IMG/VR virus record: IMGVR_UViG_3300049846_000628 | Span: 124,001-188,000 of that record | DNA from: a virus | Strand: one strand, 5' to 3' | DNA: 64,000 nucleotides | Part shown: piece after piece, positions 4,439 to 13,797 of the stretch | Layout of the letters: each line of letters starts with the position of its first letter | How positions within the stretch are numbered: position 1 is the first letter of the stretch | Notes under the pieces: generated by a model | Databases searched by the model: none | Seen by the model: the letters and a program-made list of their open reading frames with translations, nothing else | What the model was told of the DNA's origin: nothing | Translations under genes and position numbers: made by a program

Positions 4439-4636
4439 TTATGTATGTTCCGTCAAGACAACCTCATCTCCCTCTATTGTAAATCTTATTTGAGTGTCTT
4501 CGTACCAGGACAGTTCATTCATAATCCTTTCGGGAATCACCACATAATACTGCCCAGTGATTGGATCAACTTGTACGGACTCAAAAATATCTCCGGAATT
4601 TTTTTGCATTTCGGTATAATATTCAACCTTTTTCAA
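4439..4636 (-). CDS. AbrB/SpoVT-like DNA-binding domain protein
   Basis: A protein of up to 65 residues with the pattern TGQYYVVIPERIMNELSWYE followed by D-x-x-x-x-x-x-x-G-D-E-V-V-L. This is the swapped-hairpin AbrB/MazE layout (beta strand, P-E-x-hydrophobic helix, acidic turn, beta strand). The frame opens with TTG at 4636 and the first ATG is at 4609. The HNH gene ends only 15 bases upstream, so the original start may have been altered by that insertion. A similar domain occurs in the 258-residue protein at 21.1 kb. Confidence 0.65.
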   Translation of the reverse strand: MKKVEYYTEMQKNSGDIFESVQVDPITGQYYVVIPERIMNELSWYEDTQIRFTIEGDEVVLTEHT

Positions 4637-4651
4637 GATTATATATTTAAA

Positions 4652-5392
4652 TCAATATTCAATAAGTAAATTCCAAATTTTTGTTTTCTTTCTTCTTGCT
4701 ACTGAAAGATTACTTGCAATTTTATTGATAGGTAATGTTTTATTTTTCATTCGACTGAAAACAAACTCATAATGATCCTTAACCCAACTTCTTAGGTTAT
4801 ATCCTTTCCATACTTGACCAGTTAAAGTATCTGTAATTGTATAAGATTTATGATTTGGTTCGGAGGCATTTTTAAATCTACTGATCCATCTCAAATTTGT
4901 ATAATGATTGTTTAATTTATTTCCATCGATATGATCAATTTCTGCATGATGCTCTGAATTTGGTATAAAAGTCTCTGCAACTAATTGATGAATAGATTTC
5001 TTAATTTGTTTGTAGTTATTGTTTTCATCTCTAATTGAAATGTTGATGCATTCATACCGATGCTCAGGATATCTTGCATGTCCTCTAAATGCTGGTTTGA
5101 GGTAAATTAGTCCATACTCATTTATTTCTCCATATTTTCCAGTTCTATCATACTTACCCGGTCTTCGGTATGCTTTACCATCCTCTGTGATGTAGTATCC
5201 AGGATATTGTGTTTCTTTCATATCCTCAGGTATTTTTACATCAGGGTAATTGTAAGTTACTTTCTGTTTTGGTTTTGCAATCGGAATATTCCATGTTTCT
5301 CTGGGTTTTTTTAAGTAAACCCATTTGCCGTCCTTTTTAATAAATTGATTTCCATGTTTATCTGTTCTGATTGTCCCCTCTGGATATCTCAT
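4652..5392 (-). CDS. HNH homing endonuclease
   Basis: A 246-residue free-standing HNH endonuclease. The core runs from His135 (IHQLVAETF) through DHIDGNKLNN (about 153-162) to NLRWIS. The repeated (K/R)DGK-like N-terminal half and the Lys-rich C-terminus are the usual DNA-recognition modules. It sits between the AbrB-like gene and the fragment at 5461-5523, where it may have landed beside or inside an ancestral gene. Unlike the other endonuclease genes here it lacks a TATAAATA box in its leader, but has an A/T hairpin at 5416-5437. Confidence 0.88.
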   Translation of the reverse strand: MRYPEGTIRTDKHGNQFIKKDGKWVYLKKPRETWNIPIAKPKQKVTYNYPDVKIPEDMKETQYPGYYITEDGKAYRRPGKYDRTGKYGEINEYGLIYLKPAFRGHARYPEHRYECINISIRDENNNYKQIKKSIHQLVAETFIPNSEHHAEIDHIDGNKLNNHYTNLRWISRFKNASEPNHKSYTITDTLTGQVWKGYNLRSWVKDHYEFVFSRMKNKTLPINKIASNLSVARRKKTKIWNLLIEY

Positions 5393-5460: not shown

Positions 5461-5523
5461 CTATTTTAACATATAATTAGCTGCCTCTCGTAACACTTTA
5501 TAGCCTGCAGGGACCCATTGATT
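5461..5523 (-). pseudogene. C-terminal fragment of a lost gene
   Basis: A 20-codon minus-strand frame reads NQWVPAGYKVLREAANYMLK and then stops. It looks like the tail of a genuine protein and has an A+T-rich base composition, while the DNA directly upstream turns abruptly G+C-rich and closes the frame with TAA at 5524-5526. I read it as the remnant left when the GC-rich cassette island replaced the rest of the gene. I do not know the parent family. Confidence 0.4.
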
Positions 5524-5625
5524 TTAAACACGGGGGCGGGGCACCCGACCGCACCCCCCGTAGAACTGCCGAACACGAACGCATAAGACTGCCCCCCACG
5601 AACGAACGCAGGGGGCGGGGCAGGG

Positions 5626-5802
5626 TCACCCCCACTGAATCGGTTGCACGTCGGCGGCGTGGGTCTCTGCCCACTGGGCGGCGAGCAGGGTGGCGGGGTG
5701 ACCCACGGGGTCGGTGATCCGATTGAACTTGCTGCCGTCGTTACGGTAGGCGACCCACACGGTCTGGCGGTCACGAAGGCGGGTGGCGGGGGAGAAACGC
5801 AT
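5626..5802 (-). CDS. GC-rich cassette gene 1, 58 aa
   Basis: The ATG at 5800-5802 sits 24 bases below a TTGACC-17-TAGAAT promoter. The product begins MRFSPATRLRDRQTVWVAYR, is basic at the N-terminus and neutral after, and has no recognised domain. The first residues and the overall layout resemble the cassette gene at 8510-8671 (MRFEVRYQT), so the two may be distant paralogues. A longer GTG-initiated frame in this interval is out of phase and not favoured. Downstream, to 5524, is about 100 bases of very G+C-rich DNA in which I see no gene. Confidence 0.6.
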   Translation of the reverse strand: MRFSPATRLRDRQTVWVAYRNDGSKFNRITDPVGHPATLLAAQWAETHAADVQPIQWG

Positions 5803-5826
5803 TGGGTTCGGGTGTGAACTGAGAGA

Positions 5827-5855
5827 ATTCTACAGGGTCAGGGGGCAGGGGTCAA
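5827..5855 (-). promoter_or_regulatory. Sigma70-type promoter, TTGACC-17-TAGAAT
   Basis: On the minus strand TTGACC (5850-5855) and TAGAAT (5827-5832) are separated by exactly 17 bases. The TGA inside the -35 hexamer is also the stop codon of the upstream cassette gene, so one gene's end and the next gene's promoter share bases. Confidence 0.75.
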
Positions 5856-6043
5856 TACCCCAGCCAGACCAGAAACTCACCAGCGTCAACCCCGCCGAAG
5901 GCAGCGGTCGTTCCGTAGTCGGTGCGGAAGTCATCCCACAGACCGTGGAGTTTGGCAGCGTATGCCGCTTCGATCCAGAAGATGGTCCCGTTGTCGGGGT
6001 TGGTGATGGAGGCGATCTGACTGGGGAAGCAGGGGTCGGTCAT
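5852..6043 (-). CDS. GC-rich cassette gene 2, 63 aa
   Basis: An unknown acidic protein rich in aromatic residues (WDDFRTDYG, FLVWLGY). The start ATG at 6041-6043 follows the recurrent leader ending CCCG-ATG with no clear Shine-Dalgarno. The stop lies inside the -35 box of the next promoter. GC content is far above that of the structural genes in this window. Confidence 0.6.
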   Translation of the reverse strand: MTDPCFPSQIASITNPDNGTIFWIEAAYAAKLHGLWDDFRTDYGTTAAFGGVDAGEFLVWLGY

Positions 6044-6065
6044 CGGGTGCCTTGCGGTTGAGAGA

Positions 6066-6095
6066 ATTCTACAGGGTCAGGGGGCAGGGCGTCAA
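6066..6095 (-). promoter_or_regulatory. Sigma70-type promoter, TTGACG-18-TAGAAT
   Basis: The minus-strand copy of the cassette promoter. The spacer is nearly identical to that at 5827-5855 (CCTGCCCCCTGACCCTG), which shows that the promoter segment itself is duplicated. Confidence 0.7.
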
Positions 6096-6100
6096 CCTGC

Positions 6101-6265
6101 TCACCAGAGCAGGTCCGCGATTGACTGCAGGCGCTTGGCACGGGTTGCCAGTTCCTTAAGGATGGCCCGCTCCTCCTTGGCAGTGGGGTTGCCTTCCCAC
6201 AACCACTCCTCCAGTTGGAAGGAGGTCATGTCGTCGAAGGCGGTGGCGATGGTTCCGTCCAGCAC
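6101..6265 (-). CDS. GC-rich cassette gene 3, 54 aa (GTG start)
   Basis: A GTG at 6263-6265 occupies the position where neighbouring cassettes have ATG (leader GCACC-GTG). The frame gives a 54-residue helical, charged protein (FDDMTSFQLEEWLWEGNPTA). An internal ATG at codon 13 would shorten it to 42 residues. No domain is recognised. Its stop lies six bases upstream of the next -35 box. Confidence 0.55.
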   Translation of the reverse strand: MLDGTIATAFDDMTSFQLEEWLWEGNPTAKEERAILKELATRAKRLQSIADLLW

Positions 6266-6291
6266 GGTGCGCTCCGTTGGTTTGCTCTGGA

Positions 6292-6320
6292 ATTCTACAG
6301 GGTCGGGGGCGGGAGGTCAA
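6292..6320 (-). promoter_or_regulatory. Sigma70-type promoter, TTGACC-17-TAGAAT
   Basis: The third near-copy of the cassette promoter, serving the GTG-start gene. The spacer TCCCGCCCCCGACCCTG differs slightly from the two neighbours. Confidence 0.7.
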
Positions 6321-6336
6321 CCCACCCCCTGGCGGA

Positions 6337-6561
6337 TCAGACCGCCACCCAGTAGGACTTGCCGTTGATCTCCTGCTGTTCTGCCATAATGTAGGAGGCA
6401 GATCCCATGCTACCGCGCCAACCCTGAACCTGGAAGTAGCACTCCTCCAGGGAGTCCTGATAGGCAAGGGTGCTGGTGATCTTACCATCCTGCACGTGCG
6501 CCACAGCGTAGGGATAGCGTTCGGGGGAGAGGATGGTCAGCAGAGGGGTGGGGGCGGTCAT
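6337..6561 (-). CDS. GC-rich cassette gene 4, 74 aa
   Basis: The start MTAPTPLLTILSPERYPYAV is chosen at 6559-6561 because a TACAAT -10 box lies 30 bases upstream at 6591-6596 and the leader ends CCG-ATG like its neighbours. A longer open frame upstream overlaps the next gene and is rejected. The product looks like a small beta-rich domain (VAHVQDGKITSTLAYQD, then CYFQVQGW). Function unknown. Confidence 0.6.
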   Translation of the reverse strand: MTAPTPLLTILSPERYPYAVAHVQDGKITSTLAYQDSLEECYFQVQGWRGSMGSASYIMAEQQEINGKSYWVAV

Positions 6562-6590
6562 CGGTCGGGGGTGTCGGTTGAACTGAGAGT

Positions 6591-6596
6591 ATTGTA
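6591..6596 (-). promoter_or_regulatory. -10 box TACAAT of cassette gene 4
   Basis: Minus-strand CTACAATACTCTCAG, the same core seen at 6849-6854. No convincing -35 is visible. It abuts the end of cassette gene 5. Confidence 0.5.
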
Positions 6597-6601
6597 GCAG
6601 G

Positions 6602-6826
6602 TCAGCGGCGCTCGGCGTTGAAGTCCTGCAGTCCCTTAAGGATGCCCTCCAGGAAGGCGGTGCCGATGCCCTCCCAGAATTTGGGGTCGCGGACCAGTTC
6701 AGCAATGGCAGCGAACCAGTCAGCAGGGGTCGCCGCGGCCAACTGTTCGCGCTCTGCAGGAGTCAGGTCTGCCATCATCTGATTCCAGTCGTTCAGCAGT
6801 TGGGTTTCCAGGTTCGGGCGGGTCAT
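6602..6826 (-). CDS. GC-rich cassette gene 5, 74 aa
   Basis: A predominantly helical protein, MTRPNLETQLLNDWNQMMAD then PAEREQLAAATPADWFAAIA. Its stop almost touches the -10 box of the following gene, leaving no room for a separate terminator. Not recognised. Confidence 0.6.
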   Translation of the reverse strand: MTRPNLETQLLNDWNQMMADLTPAEREQLAAATPADWFAAIAELVRDPKFWEGIGTAFLEGILKGLQDFNAERR

Positions 6827-6848
6827 CGGGTCCGTTGCGGTTGAGAGT

Positions 6849-6854
6849 ATTGTA
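6849..6854 (-). promoter_or_regulatory. -10 box TACAAT of cassette gene 5
   Basis: Minus-strand GCTACAATACTCTCAACCGC lies 23 bases before the start. The downstream half matches the leader of cassette gene 2 (CTCTCAACCGCAA), so leaders are duplicated together with promoters. Confidence 0.5.
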
Positions 6855-6872
6855 GCAGATGGGGCGGACCCC

Positions 6873-7058
6873 TCAGATCATCACAGTGGTGGGCAGTGCC
6901 CGAACGATGGGGGAGTGGTGGCGGTAGCAGAACTCCCGCAGATCGTGGATGCTCTCACCAGCGAAGTCATCAGCGGTAAAGGTCCAACCGTGGAACTCAC
7001 GGTCGATCTCAGTCAGGGTGTGAGCGATCAGGGAGCGGAGGTTCTGAGCGGTAGTCAT
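6873..7058 (-). CDS. GC-rich cassette gene 6, 61 aa
   Basis: Starts MTTAQNLRSLIAHTLTEIDR, amphipathic helix first, then GWTFTADDFAGESIHDLREF. Small soluble protein of unknown role. A TATACT box lies 23 bases upstream of the ATG at 7058. Confidence 0.6.
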   Translation of the reverse strand: MTTAQNLRSLIAHTLTEIDREFHGWTFTADDFAGESIHDLREFCYRHHSPIVRALPTTVMI

Positions 7059-7080
7059 CGGTTTCGTTTGAACTGAGATC

Positions 7081-7086
7081 AGTATA
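7081..7086 (-). promoter_or_regulatory. -10 box TATACT of cassette gene 6
   Basis: Minus-strand CTTATACTGATCTCAG. The TATACTGA(G/T) form is one of two recurrent -10 types in this island and is shared with the genes at 7130 and 8510. Confidence 0.55.
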
Positions 7087-7098
7087 AGGGGTTGGGGT

Positions 7099-7116
7099 GG
7101 GGTCTCCGGAGACCCC
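7099..7116 (-). terminator. Perfect 18-bp G/C palindrome downstream of cassette gene 7
   Basis: GGGGTCTCCGGAGACCCC is fully self-complementary and follows the gene ending at 7130. There is no T-run, so it may be a transcript-stabilising or protein-bound element and not an intrinsic terminator. Confidence 0.45.
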
Positions 7117-7139
7117 GTGTGCCAGTGCCTCAGGCGTCC
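7117..7139 (-). repeat. Stop-codon-spanning dispersed repeat, copy 1
   Basis: Minus strand GGACGCC-TGA-GGCACTGGCACAC. The TGA is the stop codon of the gene at 7130-7318. Member of the roughly 24-bp family described in the findings. Confidence 0.6.
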
Positions 7140-7318
7140 ATCCCCATCGCATCCCGCAGGATGTTGTAGGCGTTCAGGTAGTAGTCTGCGTCAGCACCCT
7201 TACCAGCGACGCGGCAATCGACTGCCAGGCAGAGCACGGCGGTGCGGATAGTGCTCCACTGTGCCTCAGTCAGGGTGATGGAGCAGAGGTCGTTGGGGAG
7301 GACGTTGGTGCGGGTCAT
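7130..7318 (-). CDS. GC-rich cassette gene 7, 62 aa
   Basis: MTRTNVLPNDLCSITLTEAQ, then AVLCLAVDCRVAGKGADADYY. Helical, slightly acidic. It resembles cassette gene 10 in the central TVRTALI/TIRTAVL segment, which suggests a paralogous pair. The stop is embedded in the dispersed repeat. Confidence 0.6.
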   Translation of the reverse strand: MTRTNVLPNDLCSITLTEAQWSTIRTAVLCLAVDCRVAGKGADADYYLNAYNILRDAMGMDA

Positions 7319-7341
7319 CGGTCGTTTGCTTCGGTTCCCTC

Positions 7342-7347
7342 AGTATA
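7342..7347 (-). promoter_or_regulatory. -10 box TATACT of cassette gene 7
   Basis: Minus-strand CTCTATACTGAGGGAACCG directly follows the terminator hairpin at 7353-7376, giving a compact terminator-promoter junction. Confidence 0.55.
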
Positions 7348-7352
7348 GAGGC

Positions 7353-7376
7353 AAAAGGGAGGGGTCGTCCCCCTCC
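7353..7376 (-). terminator. Intrinsic terminator of cassette gene 8
   Basis: Minus strand GGAGGGG-GACGA-CCCCTCC followed by CTTTTG. Strong stem, short T-run. It lies 12 bases after the stop of the 44-residue gene. Confidence 0.65.
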
Positions 7377-7388
7377 GTTGTGCCACTA

Positions 7389-7523
7389 TCAGAATTGGAT
7401 TTCTTCGGCGGTCGGCTGGGCATCGGGCATGGTATCATCCTCTGCGATCGTTTCCAGGATCTGCAGGATGCTGTCGCCGTTGCTGCCTTGGCGGAGCAGG
7501 GACATGGCAAGGTCGCGGGTCAT
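7389..7523 (-). CDS. GC-rich cassette gene 8, 44 aa
   Basis: ATG at 7521-7523, product MTRDLAMSLLRQGSNGDSIL, then EDDTMPDAQPTAEEIQF. The same frame stays open for more than 25 codons upstream (reading STPESISPEHDFKLLSNLYS), which looks protein-like, so the true start may be a rare codon further upstream overlapping the next gene. Small helical protein; similar short proteins occur in marine picocyanobacteria, but the function is unknown. Confidence 0.55.
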   Translation of the reverse strand: MTRDLAMSLLRQGSNGDSILQILETIAEDDTMPDAQPTAEEIQF

Positions 7524-7581
7524 TTGAGAATCAGAGTAAAGGTTGCTGAGCAGTTTAAAGTCGTGCTCAGGACTGATAGAT

Positions 7582-7833
7582 TCAGGAGTCGAAAACGTCG
7601 CCGTTGATCTCAGCGCGGTTGATCTTAGGGTCGTCCCACTTTACACCGTCAGGGGTTTCTTTGCTGCCGCAATCATAGAATGCTTCCAGAAGTTCTTCAT
7701 AGCAGCAGATGTCATTCTCCTGAATGAAGTTGTAGATGCTTTCATCATTCTCAATCCAGAGCACCACGTTCCAGGTCTCATAATTGGTCCAACCGTTGTA
7801 GGTCTTGGTGGGAGCGGTGAGGGTGGCGGTCAT
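7582..7833 (-). CDS. DUF7249-like small protein, 83 aa (cassette gene 9)
   Basis: The motif YNGWTNYETWNVVLWIENDE (residues 12-31) is characteristic of a small phage/plasmid family of unknown role (the N-x-W-x-N-Y-E-T-W signature). The remainder is acidic with a paired Cys (ICCYEELLEAFYDCGSKETP). A TATACT box at 7858-7863 lies 24 bases upstream. Confidence 0.75.
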   Translation of the reverse strand: MTATLTAPTKTYNGWTNYETWNVVLWIENDESIYNFIQENDICCYEELLEAFYDCGSKETPDGVKWDDPKINRAEINGDVFDS

Positions 7834-7857
7834 TGGGGTTCGGTTCGGAACTTGTTT

Positions 7858-7863
7858 AGTATA
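7858..7863 (-). promoter_or_regulatory. -10 box TATACT of cassette gene 9
   Basis: Minus-strand CCCTATACTAAACAAG, preceded by the G/C hairpin GGGGGCACC-TCCC-GCCCCC, the same block found in front of the gene at 8510. Confidence 0.55.
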
Positions 7864-7892
7864 GGGGGCGGGAGGTGCCCCCTGGTGGGTCA

Positions 7893-7918
7893 GTGTGCCA
7901 GTGCCTCAGGCGGCACAA
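7893..7918 (-). repeat. Stop-codon-spanning dispersed repeat, copy 2
   Basis: Minus strand CTTGTGCCGCC-TGA-GGCACTGG. Inverted GTGCC/GGCAC arms flank the stop codon of the 66-residue gene, which therefore ends in Cys-Ala-Ala. Confidence 0.65.
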
Positions 7919-8106
7919 GCGGCAGGGGTCAGGGTGACTTCTACGCTACCGTCGATCGCCAGCAGCGCCGCGTCGATGGCATCCAGGCGGGCTTCCACAA
8001 TGGAAGGCGTGAAGTGCTCAGGATGCTTCACTGCCAGACTCAGCAGCTCACCCTTCCAGGAGATCAGGGCAGTGCGGACGGTGGCGGTGGGGAGGGTCGC
8101 GGTCAT
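7906..8106 (-). CDS. GC-rich cassette gene 10, 66 aa
   Basis: MTATLPTATVRTALISWKGE, then HFTPSIVEARLDAIDAALLA. Ala-rich helical protein ending CAA, a tail dictated by the dispersed repeat across its stop. The TAGAAT box at 8129-8134 lies 22 bases upstream. Confidence 0.6.
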   Translation of the reverse strand: MTATLPTATVRTALISWKGELLSLAVKHPEHFTPSIVEARLDAIDAALLAIDGSVEVTLTPAACAA

Positions 8107-8128
8107 CGGGGTCGTTTGATCTGAGAGT

Positions 8129-8134
8129 ATTCTA
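8129..8134 (-). promoter_or_regulatory. -10 box TAGAAT of cassette gene 10
   Basis: Minus-strand CCCTGTAGAATACTCTCAG. The preceding GCGGGCAGACCCGC hairpin is part of the end of cassette gene 11. Confidence 0.5.
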
Positions 8135-8139
8135 CAGGG

Positions 8140-8310
8140 TCAGCGGGTCTGCCCGCAGTAGGAAGGGGACACTTTACAGAGTGCCTCTGCCTGCCGCTCC
8201 TGGTGCGCGTTGATGGTAGCGACTGCCTCCAGTGCCCAGGCACCTGCCACAATGCTCACCATGGCGAAGCACATAATGGCGAGAGAGTTCTGAAAGGAAC
8301 GTTCGGTCAT
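8140..8310 (-). CDS. Small membrane protein, 56 aa (cassette gene 11)
   Basis: After MTERSFQNS a single hydrophobic segment LAIMCFAMVSIVAGAWALEA (about residues 10-29) should span a membrane, followed by a short polar tail with two Cys. The ATG at 8308-8310 has the cassette leader ACCG-ATG and a TAGACT box 25 bases upstream. Topology and role unknown. Confidence 0.6.
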   Translation of the reverse strand: MTERSFQNSLAIMCFAMVSIVAGAWALEAVATINAHQERQAEALCKVSPSYCGQTR

Positions 8311-8334
8311 CGGTTCGGTTCGGTTGATGGAATC

Positions 8335-8340
8335 AGTCTA
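8335..8340 (-). promoter_or_regulatory. -10 box TAGACT of cassette gene 11
   Basis: Minus-strand CCCTGTAGACTGATTCCATC. The downstream part matches the leader of the gene at 8510 (CTGATTCCATCAGC). Here a TTGACC lies only three bases upstream of the -10, too close to act as -35. Confidence 0.45.
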
Positions 8341-8345
8341 CAGGG

Positions 8346-8513
8346 TCAACGGGAGATGAGGTCGCCTGCAGTGTACAGTGCCTCAGCTGTCACACTGCGA
8401 ATCGGTTGCATCGGACCCCAGAACGTGTAGAGCAGGGCACCGCCGATCAGGAGTTTAATCATGGTAGCACGGTGAAACTCAGGAGAGCGGGAGCGGGTCA
8501 GGGAGCGCATCAT
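8346..8513 (-). CDS. Small protein, 55 aa or 38 aa (cassette gene 12)
   Basis: The ATG at 8511-8513 overlaps the stop of the upstream gene as ATGA, favouring coupled translation of 55 residues. A second ATG at 8460-8462 would give a 38-residue form beginning MIKLLIGGALLYTFWGPMQP. That form looks like a membrane-anchored peptide family in picocyanobacteria, so either start may be used. A dispersed-repeat copy lies within its 3' part. Confidence 0.55.
   Translation of the reverse strand: MMRSLTRSRSPEFHRATMIKLLIGGALLYTFWGPMQPIRSVTAEALYTAGDLISR
8371..8393 (-). repeat. Dispersed repeat, copy 3 (inside coding sequence)
   Basis: Minus strand GTGACAGC-TGAGGCACTGTACAC. Here the TGA is out of frame and the repeat is translated, unlike copies at stop codons. 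Confidence 0.5.
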
Positions 8514-8671
8514 CGCTGCAGTTGGGCAAGGGAGGAAGGGGCGATGTGGGAGGGGGAACCACAGGAGCGGTAGAAGTCTACCATGCGGTCTGCTTCCTCT
8601 TTAGTGGTGAACCACTGCGAGCGCCACTCACAGGCATTGTAGGGGGTCTGGTAGCGGACTTCGAAGCGCAT
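8510..8671 (-). CDS. GC-rich cassette gene 13, 53 aa
   Basis: MRFEVRYQTPYNACEWRSQW, then FTTKEEADRMVDFYRSCGSP. A compact alpha/beta-looking protein with two Cys. Its start resembles cassette gene 1. The stop overlaps the downstream start (ATGA). Function not recognised. Confidence 0.6.
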   Translation of the reverse strand: MRFEVRYQTPYNACEWRSQWFTTKEEADRMVDFYRSCGSPSHIAPSSLAQLQR

Positions 8672-8694
8672 CGGTGTCGTTTGCTGATGGAATC

Positions 8695-8700
8695 AGTATA
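8695..8700 (-). promoter_or_regulatory. -10 box TATACT of cassette gene 13
   Basis: Minus-strand CTTATACTGATTCCATC, preceded by GGGGGCACC-TCCC-GCCCC, the hairpin closing the upstream 251-residue gene. Confidence 0.55.
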
Positions 8701-12765: not shown

Positions 12766-12951
12766 TCAGAAGGGATCGATTTCCTTCGTGGTAGCATACA
12801 CTTCCTCATCACCTTCGAGTTCCAGTAACTCTTTCCAGTCCATATGTTCTACATCTAGATCATCATAACACATGATGTCTAGATTAACACGTACAAGGCG
12901 TTTCTGTACTAACATGGCGTCTAGATGTGTATGTGTACTAGATTGTATCAT
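12766..12951 (-). CDS. Small acidic protein, 61 aa
   Basis: ATG at 12951 overlaps the stop of the Tyr/Asp-rich gene as ATGA. The product begins basic (MIQSSTHTHLDAMLVQKRLV) and ends acidic (DWKELLELEGDEEVYATTKE). An internal ATG would give the acidic half alone (about 35 residues). No family recognised. Confidence 0.45.
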   Translation of the reverse strand: MIQSSTHTHLDAMLVQKRLVRVNLDIMCYDDLDVEHMDWKELLELEGDEEVYATTKEIDPF

Positions 12952-13255
12952 GCATAATGACGATACGCAAGATCTTGATAATCATGCGCGTCTCGTGCAT
13001 AGTCCTCGTCGAGATCCTGTGTATAATACTCGTCGAGATCCGCGTAATCGTTTGTGTATGTATAGTCGAGATCGTAGTCGTCGTACATAGCTCGTCGAGA
13101 TTGTGTGACTAGATGATTATAGCATGAATCTAGACTAGATGCAAGAACTAGATTTGGGGTCTAGACTAGATTATGATAATATATATGAGTTCTCGACTAG
13201 ATTTGTGTTGATATGATAATATAATGCTATTGTGATATCTCGACTAGATTTTATG
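12850..13255. repeat. CTAG-dense tract with CTAGA/CTCGTCGAGAT repeats
   Basis: About a dozen CTAG tetranucleotides in 400 bases, mostly as CTAGAT or TCTAGACTAGAT, plus three CTCGTCGAGAT copies and two CTCGACTAGATTT copies. CTAG is normally rare in bacteria and phages. The left part is translated in the Tyr/Asp-rich gene; 13089-13255 is non-coding. Confidence 0.55.
12948..13088 (-). CDS. Tyr/Asp-rich low-complexity protein, 46 aa
   Basis: ATG at 13086-13088 gives MYDDYDLDYTYTNDYADLDE, then YYTQDLDEDYARDAHDYQDL. The repeated Asp-Leu-Asp-Glu comes from GATCTCGACGAG units in the DNA. Either a genuine disordered acidic peptide or a by-product of the DNA repeats. The ATGA junction with the next gene supports translation. 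Confidence 0.45.
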   Translation of the reverse strand: MYDDYDLDYTYTNDYADLDEYYTQDLDEDYARDAHDYQDLAYRHYA

Positions 13256-13292: not shown

Positions 13293-13321
13293 TTGACTTT
13301 GAGAGCTTCGTGTGTTATAAT
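13293..13321 (+). promoter_or_regulatory. Near-consensus sigma70 promoter facing right (TTGACT-17-TATAAT)
   Basis: TTGACT (13293-13298) and TATAAT (13316-13321) with a 17-base spacer. It points against all neighbouring genes and reads into the 11-mer array and the A+T-rich tract. No plus-strand gene follows for many kilobases, so its product is a non-coding RNA or a replication primer. Confidence 0.8.
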
Positions 13322-13348
13322 GCGCTCGCTAAGCTTGCATAAGGATCA

Positions 13349-13524
13349 GACATTTATAAGGTTTTAATGGGGTCTTTATAAGGTCTTTATAAGGTCTTTA
13401 TAAGGTCTTTATAAGGTCTTTATAAGGTCTTTATAAGGTCTTTATAAGGTCTTTATAAGGTCTTTATAAGGTTTTAATGGGGTTTTTATAAGGTTTTAAT
13501 GGGGTTTTAATGAGGTATTAAACA
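13349..13524. repeat. Tandem array of sixteen 11-mers
   Basis: Nine identical GGTCTTTATAA units (13371-13469) are flanked by seven degenerate units in the same 11-base register (GACATTTATAA and GGTTTTAATGG before; GGTTTTAATGG, GGTTTTTATAA, GGTTTTAATGG, GGTTTTAATGA and GGTATTAAACA after). Eleven bases is close to one helical turn, so all units present the same face to a bound protein. Non-coding on both strands. Confidence 0.9.
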
Positions 13525-13626
13525 GATAATATAAGCATATAACACTAACATTATACAACCGAATAAAAAACAATAATATATTTTTTAATATATTTTTTAA
13601 TTGATTTTAACCTTTTTTATTGATTT
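13525..13626. other. A+T-rich tract, possible DNA-unwinding element
   Basis: About 100 bases that are almost only A and T, with ATATATTTTTTAATATATTTTTTAATTG at 13576-13603. It lies between the 11-mer array and a small gene. Low melting stability next to a strong promoter and iteron-like repeats is the usual makeup of an origin. Confidence 0.45.
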
Positions 13627-13797
13627 TTATGCCTTTTGGAGGTTAGAAAGTTCGTGTTCTGCTCTTCTTTCTAACTCTCCGTGTACGTGTCTACGTTGTT
13701 GACGACTCGCAATCGCATTCTGTCTAGCACGGAACATTGAGAGTGAAGTTTGTGGAGCAGAAGGAATCTGTTCCATAAATTGTTGAAACGTTTTCAT
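13627..13797 (-). CDS. Small protein with MKTFQQF start, 56 aa
   Basis: ATG at 13795-13797. The N-terminus MKTFQQFMEQIPSAPQTSLS is followed by a basic Arg/Gln/His-rich part. Small proteins starting M-K-T-F-x-x-F are common in T4-like cyanophages, several of them probably head-associated, but I cannot assign this one. Confidence 0.65.
   Translation of the reverse strand: MKTFQQFMEQIPSAPQTSLSMFRARQNAIASRQQRRHVHGELERRAEHELSNLQKA

Follow-up and report, generated by a model that had tools for sequence, protein, structure and literature searches.

What is the role of a strong rightward promoter, followed by a tandem array of 11-mers and an A/T-rich block, in a region where the neighbouring genes are all on the other strand? 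The window analysed here is a stretch of 64,000 nucleotides, representing positions 124001-188000 of a linear virus record from IMG/VR with a length of 211,201 bp (G000), whose baseplate hub protein matches T4-like cyanophages, with S-SKS1 and S-SRM01 as the best matches. The original prediction regarded this locus as a candidate replication origin, and comparison with related phages strongly supported it, based on a single-copy module, DnaA boxes in the relatives, phased repeats and a block of low stability. Very probably, this T4-like cyanophage starts its replication at the element, which is probably its only origin and where early transcription would act together with an initiator on the array. 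Its parts and borders are as follows (window coordinates):

12948-13088, minus strand: 46-aa acidic ORF at the left border of the element; a counterpart was recognised by eye in S-SRM01
13004-13248, no strand assigned: near-palindromic 11-mer of the TCTCGWCKAGA type, eight copies with at most one mismatch, upstream of the promoter (genome count)
13293-13321, plus strand: sigma-70 type promoter TTGACT-17-TATAAT with an extended -10 (TG before the -10), 11/12 consensus bases, conserved in related phages
13322-13360, plus strand: conserved initially transcribed block, here GCGCTCGCTAAGCTTGCATAAGGATCAGACATTTATAAG (alignments A2 and A3, models R1 and R2)
13349-13524, plus strand: sixteen 11-bp units, putative initiator-binding array (tandem repeat score 222)
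13525-13630, no strand assigned: A/T-rich block containing repeats of the ATTTTTTAAT type, a candidate DNA unwinding element (A+T content and stability rank)
13627-13797, minus strand: 56-aa ORF at the right border of the element, no family found

The predicted plus-strand promoter was confirmed, and its -35 hexamer, TTGACT, is near-consensus for sigma-70. Only three plus-strand sites with 11/12 consensus bases were found in the 211-kb genome, versus 21 on the minus strand. The element occupies a gap among minus-strand genes, and the nearest credible plus-strand genes rightward of the promoter were found at ~52.4-55.6 kb, in agreement with the earlier observation that no plus-strand gene follows for tens of kilobases. 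No terminator was detected 3' of the promoter in the window copy, and an Rfam search of the element returned no family; the repeats matched microRNAs, but below the threshold. When the exact promoter pattern GGGGGTTGACTTTGAGAG was searched in IMG/VR, the hits were chance matches within a glutaredoxin-like gene. Upstream of the promoter, 8 of the 11 TCTCGWCKAGA-type sites of the genome are clustered within 13004-13248, the leftmost copies overlapping a small minus-strand ORF. Similar clusters precede the element in G001, S-SRM01, L202, S-BM3, G011 and S-SKS1 (two sites), and are absent there in Syn9 and S-SM2.

Several other features of the record were noticed. A G+C-rich island (~55-61% vs 37.7% for the genome) at 5480-8700 of the window contains many small minus-strand ORFs, several of which are preceded by near-identical promoter-like sequences resembling CCTGTAGAATTCTC, and an HNH endonuclease gene (PF13392) is located at 4652-5392 on the minus strand. 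Both ends of the record (its positions 1-130 and 210561-211201) carry short repeats (TAAGTTGCTATACCAGCATAAGTAGCA), which perhaps belong to a single repetitive gene that was cut when a circular map was made linear.

The array consists, as predicted, of sixteen 11-base units, nine of which are identical (GGTCTTTATAA, at 13371-13469), while the first and last units are degenerate; a near-identical contig breaks within the array, and thus the assembled number of units may be inexact. The TTTATAAGGTC unit was also found downstream of this promoter in L034, an independent contig from IMG/VR whose end cuts it off. Matches to GGTTTTAATGGGGTTTT in IMG/VR, with the exception of the near-identical contig, were unrelated. 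The A/T-rich tract that follows is present with an A+T content of 86% at 13526-13625 and 92% in its best 60 bp (13561-13620), so that its original description as almost pure A/T slightly overstates the case. Only one locus of the 211-kb genome is less stable.

To what extent is this arrangement shared by other phages? Distant blastn matches to the promoter region were first found in intergenic gaps of S-SRM01 and SynMITS9220M01, followed by S-SM2, Bellamy, S-SSM4, S-SSM6b, Sf-CH5, S-8S53/55/56, S-CAM9, S-PRM1, S-SCSM1, S-SCSM2R, S-SKS1, S-BM3, Sf-FS3, Syn19 and one single-cell virus, and thirteen further copies were read in IMG/VR. The copies in relatives lie mostly amid small minus-oriented genes, several of them near purM or a glycosyltransferase gene, and in several phages an apparent terminator of a convergent minus-strand gene is seen by eye just right of the element. 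In rightward order, the module comprises the promoter, a conserved first transcribed block (family consensus approximately GCnCGCTTAGATCACAAnACCTGAGCACATTTAA), a variable repeat region and the A/T block. The -35/-10 pair is rearranged in the group formed by S-SSM4, Syn19, Syn9 and S-PM2.

A sequence-only model (R1), built from 17 copies with Syn9, G001 and G011 kept outside training, identified one strong copy each in 20 of 20 named cyanomyovirus records as well as in G000, G001 and G011, the training phages being included in this count; S-8S53 (at the end of its record), Sf-FS3 and G001 also contained further matches, weak or partial. The E value of the Syn9 copy was 1.3e-6. A second model (R2) recovered S-PM2 from outside its training (E = 2.2e-5) and, more weakly, S-RSM4 (0.0018) and P-SSM2 (0.013). 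No match to the module was found in T4, P-SSM4, P-HM1 or S-CAM7. When a 69-nt consensus was compared with 50,697 records, all 18 matches were cyanophages or a marine single-cell virus. Judged by these sequence comparisons, the array of the window is one version of a conserved module. The conservation of promoter and A/T block in other phages, like the tandem repeat score, indicates that the arrangement exceeds chance.

The A/T block, of the TATATTTTTTAATACATTTTTAATTGATTTT type, is retained in the relatives. The fraction of 100-bp windows less stable than this block was 0.014% in G000, 0.004% in SynMITS9220M01, 0.039% in S-SKS1, 0.165% in S-SM2 and 2.2% in Syn9; it is therefore among the least stable DNA in four of the five genomes ranked, and not extreme in Syn9. 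In S-PM2, the A/T block comes before the DnaA boxes described below.

Without any preset motif, the commonest 9-mer after the promoter was TTTTCCACA, present in 10 of 20 windows; after shuffling, the highest count of any 9-mer with three or more G or C was 4. Cyanobacterial chromosomes use this 9-mer as their DnaA box (PMC4674748, PMC3480399). Of the 113 DnaA boxes (TTWTCCACA) counted in 23 genomes, 24 were located within 300 bp of the element, whereas 0.21 were expected, although the formal enrichment probability overstates the case because several boxes had been seen before the test and the phages are related. At least one perfect box is present at the element in 13 of these genomes and none in the other 10. 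The result for S-PM2, three of whose nine genome boxes fall within ~110 bp at the element, is cleaner because the element had first been located by the model alone. Direct spacings between boxes were 8, 10-12, 20-22, 32 and 42-43 bp, and 28 of 30 deviated from a multiple of 10.5 by no more than 1.5 bp. No DnaA C-terminal domain was encoded in 14 phage genomes examined, implying that DnaA, if it acts here, is that of the host; the gp59 helicase loader was encoded in 13 of the 14. Elements lacking perfect boxes (G001, S-SRM01, L202, S-RSM4, Bellamy and G011) contain repeated motifs similar to TATTCTCAA or TTGAGAATA, possibly another initiator site.

How does the 11-mer array relate to these boxes? 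In S-SKS1, five 22-bp units containing TTTATAAGAG at +57, +79, +101, +123 and +145 are directly continued by DnaA boxes at +156, +177 and +198, which places repeats and boxes in one 11-bp register. TTA units spaced 10 bp apart are seen in S-SRM01 and L202. The array thus holds the place and the helical spacing of the relatives' DnaA boxes. In the window copy itself, no 9-mer with at least 7/9 matches to the DnaA box was found in the 330 bp scanned. The TTTATAAGG units stand in place of DnaA boxes in this phage. Read on the minus strand, the unit may be taken as a 9-mer, TTATAAAGA, with 6/9 bases like TTATCCACA, plus a 2-bp spacer, which is the spacing of low-affinity DnaA sites in the oriC of E. 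coli.

No initiator-like family was detected among the neighbouring ORFs tested, and screening for an initiator gene confined to the phages with an array produced a long list of clade-specific ORFs with no clear candidate. A small protein encoded at 4439-4636 (minus strand) is weakly similar to MazE/AbrB DNA-binding antitoxins, below the Pfam cut-off, and is conserved in array-bearing phages; it is a possible but unsupported initiator candidate.

The anatomy of the element, its conservation, its single strong copy, the box enrichment, the phasing and the low duplex stability were established by the analysis, and we infer every functional step of the origin reading. Host RNA polymerase would initiate rightward from the early-type promoter, and transcription, together with an initiator bound to the helically phased array, would open the adjacent A/T block. 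The gp59/gp41 helicase-primase and the gp43 polymerase could then be loaded at the opened block, where the promoter transcript might serve to prime first. Host DnaA would most likely be the initiator in those relatives that carry TTTTCCACA/TTATCCACA boxes; in this phage, the 11-bp TTTATAAGGTC units might be bound by an initiator of the phage, or they might be weak sites for DnaA. We see about an even chance that, in most cyanobacterial T4-like phages, replication begins at a single oriC-like origin via host DnaA, and that this lineage swapped the boxes for an 11-bp array with a different initiator while the promoter and the unwinding block were kept. GC skew, which had been proposed as a check, was computed for the G000 and Syn9 genomes; it was near-monotonic with the coding strand and marked no origin.

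Other explanations of the locus should be considered. An R-loop origin of the T4 oriF/oriG kind, in which the transcript remains paired with the DNA of the A/T block, priming the leading strand, while the array serves only as a spacer or R-loop aid, is rather unlikely. In T4, too, an A/T-rich block comes after the promoter (PMC3016281), and the transcript strand is G-rich in this phage (skew +0.51). However, it is C-rich in most relatives and G-rich in G000 and S-SKS1, so that conservation does not extend to a G-rich R-loop, and neither DnaA boxes nor helical phasing nor repeats would be expected of such an origin. Priming by the transcript and opening by DnaA are compatible with each other. 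The locus might instead drive early synthesis of a small regulatory RNA, with a regulator bound to the array and no origin involved, as the original prediction had also envisaged. The strong promoter, the conservation of the first ~35 transcribed bases and the lack of a conserved ORF in the window copy would fit this, but the DnaA boxes and the very low-stability block are unexpected and left unexplained, and neither an Rfam family nor a terminator accompanies the promoter; we regard this possibility as improbable.

Promoter function for protein-coding genes is a related idea. Plus-strand genes lie within ~250 bp downstream in S-8S55/S-8S56, S-CAM9, S-PRM1 and S-BM3, and thus the promoter may also serve a gene in some relatives; that it is just an ordinary early promoter for plus-strand genes since lost in this phage is nevertheless quite improbable, considering that the downstream genes differ and that most phages lack any, yet the repeats and the A/T block persist. 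On the minus strand, the units read TATAAAGA, one base off the T4 late octamer TATAAATA, which itself occurs 26 times on the minus and twice on the plus strand of G000, matching the main gene orientation. A late-promoter-like array bound by a late sigma factor could be imagined on this ground, but it is very doubtful, as the octamer is missed by one base and relatives carry DnaA boxes there instead. Finally, 11-bp direct repeats beside a promoter recall a centromere or partition-like site: in parC of plasmid R1, 11-bp repeats flank a promoter. Such a role is extremely improbable here, since relatives hold DnaA boxes at this place and no partition family, parM/parR included, was found among the neighbouring ORFs tested.

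The preferred reading, a replication origin, can be compared with known systems. Iteron plasmid and P1-type origins combine phased direct repeats with an A/T-rich region, some of them with DnaA boxes. The original iteron interpretation fits the 16 direct 11-bp repeats in helical phase, although units in the present module are shorter (10, 11 or 22 bp) and an adjacent initiator gene was not recognised. A search of titles and abstracts in the open literature returned no description of this element and no mapped origin of a cyanomyovirus. For Syn9, a single theta origin has been predicted, as cited in PMC2984593; the present module, which may or may not be the predicted site, occurs once in that genome, at 52.6 kb and with DnaA boxes. 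The module offers one testable coordinate in each of many sequenced phages, including Syn9 and S-PM2, in the latter at 19.3 kb.

In T4, the origins share no common motif, oriE contains 12-nt iterons whose role is undefined, and oriF and oriG form R-loops from MotA-dependent middle promoters (PMC3016281). The array resembles oriE in that short direct repeats follow one another at even intervals, but unit length and sequence are different, and T4 has several origins whereas the present module is single. A promoter followed by a DNA unwinding element, here a putative one, is shared with oriF and oriG; on the other hand, the promoter here looks like an early one of the sigma-70 type and repeats lie in between. 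DnaA is not mentioned in the T4 replication review (PMC3016281), and its use would depart from the known start of this model virus. In the oriC of cyanobacteria such as Synechococcus elongatus PCC 7942, Anabaena 7120 and Cyanothece 51142, a cluster of TTTTCCACA lies by an A/T stretch in an intergenic gap (PMC4674748, PMC3480399), as in many of the phage relatives. Unlike these chromosomal origins, the phage element is located on a lytic phage, has a strong promoter pointing inward and no dnaA or dnaN seen alongside, and in the window copy carries 11-mers in place of boxes. If the reading is true, phage replication would be tied to the host's own replication initiator.
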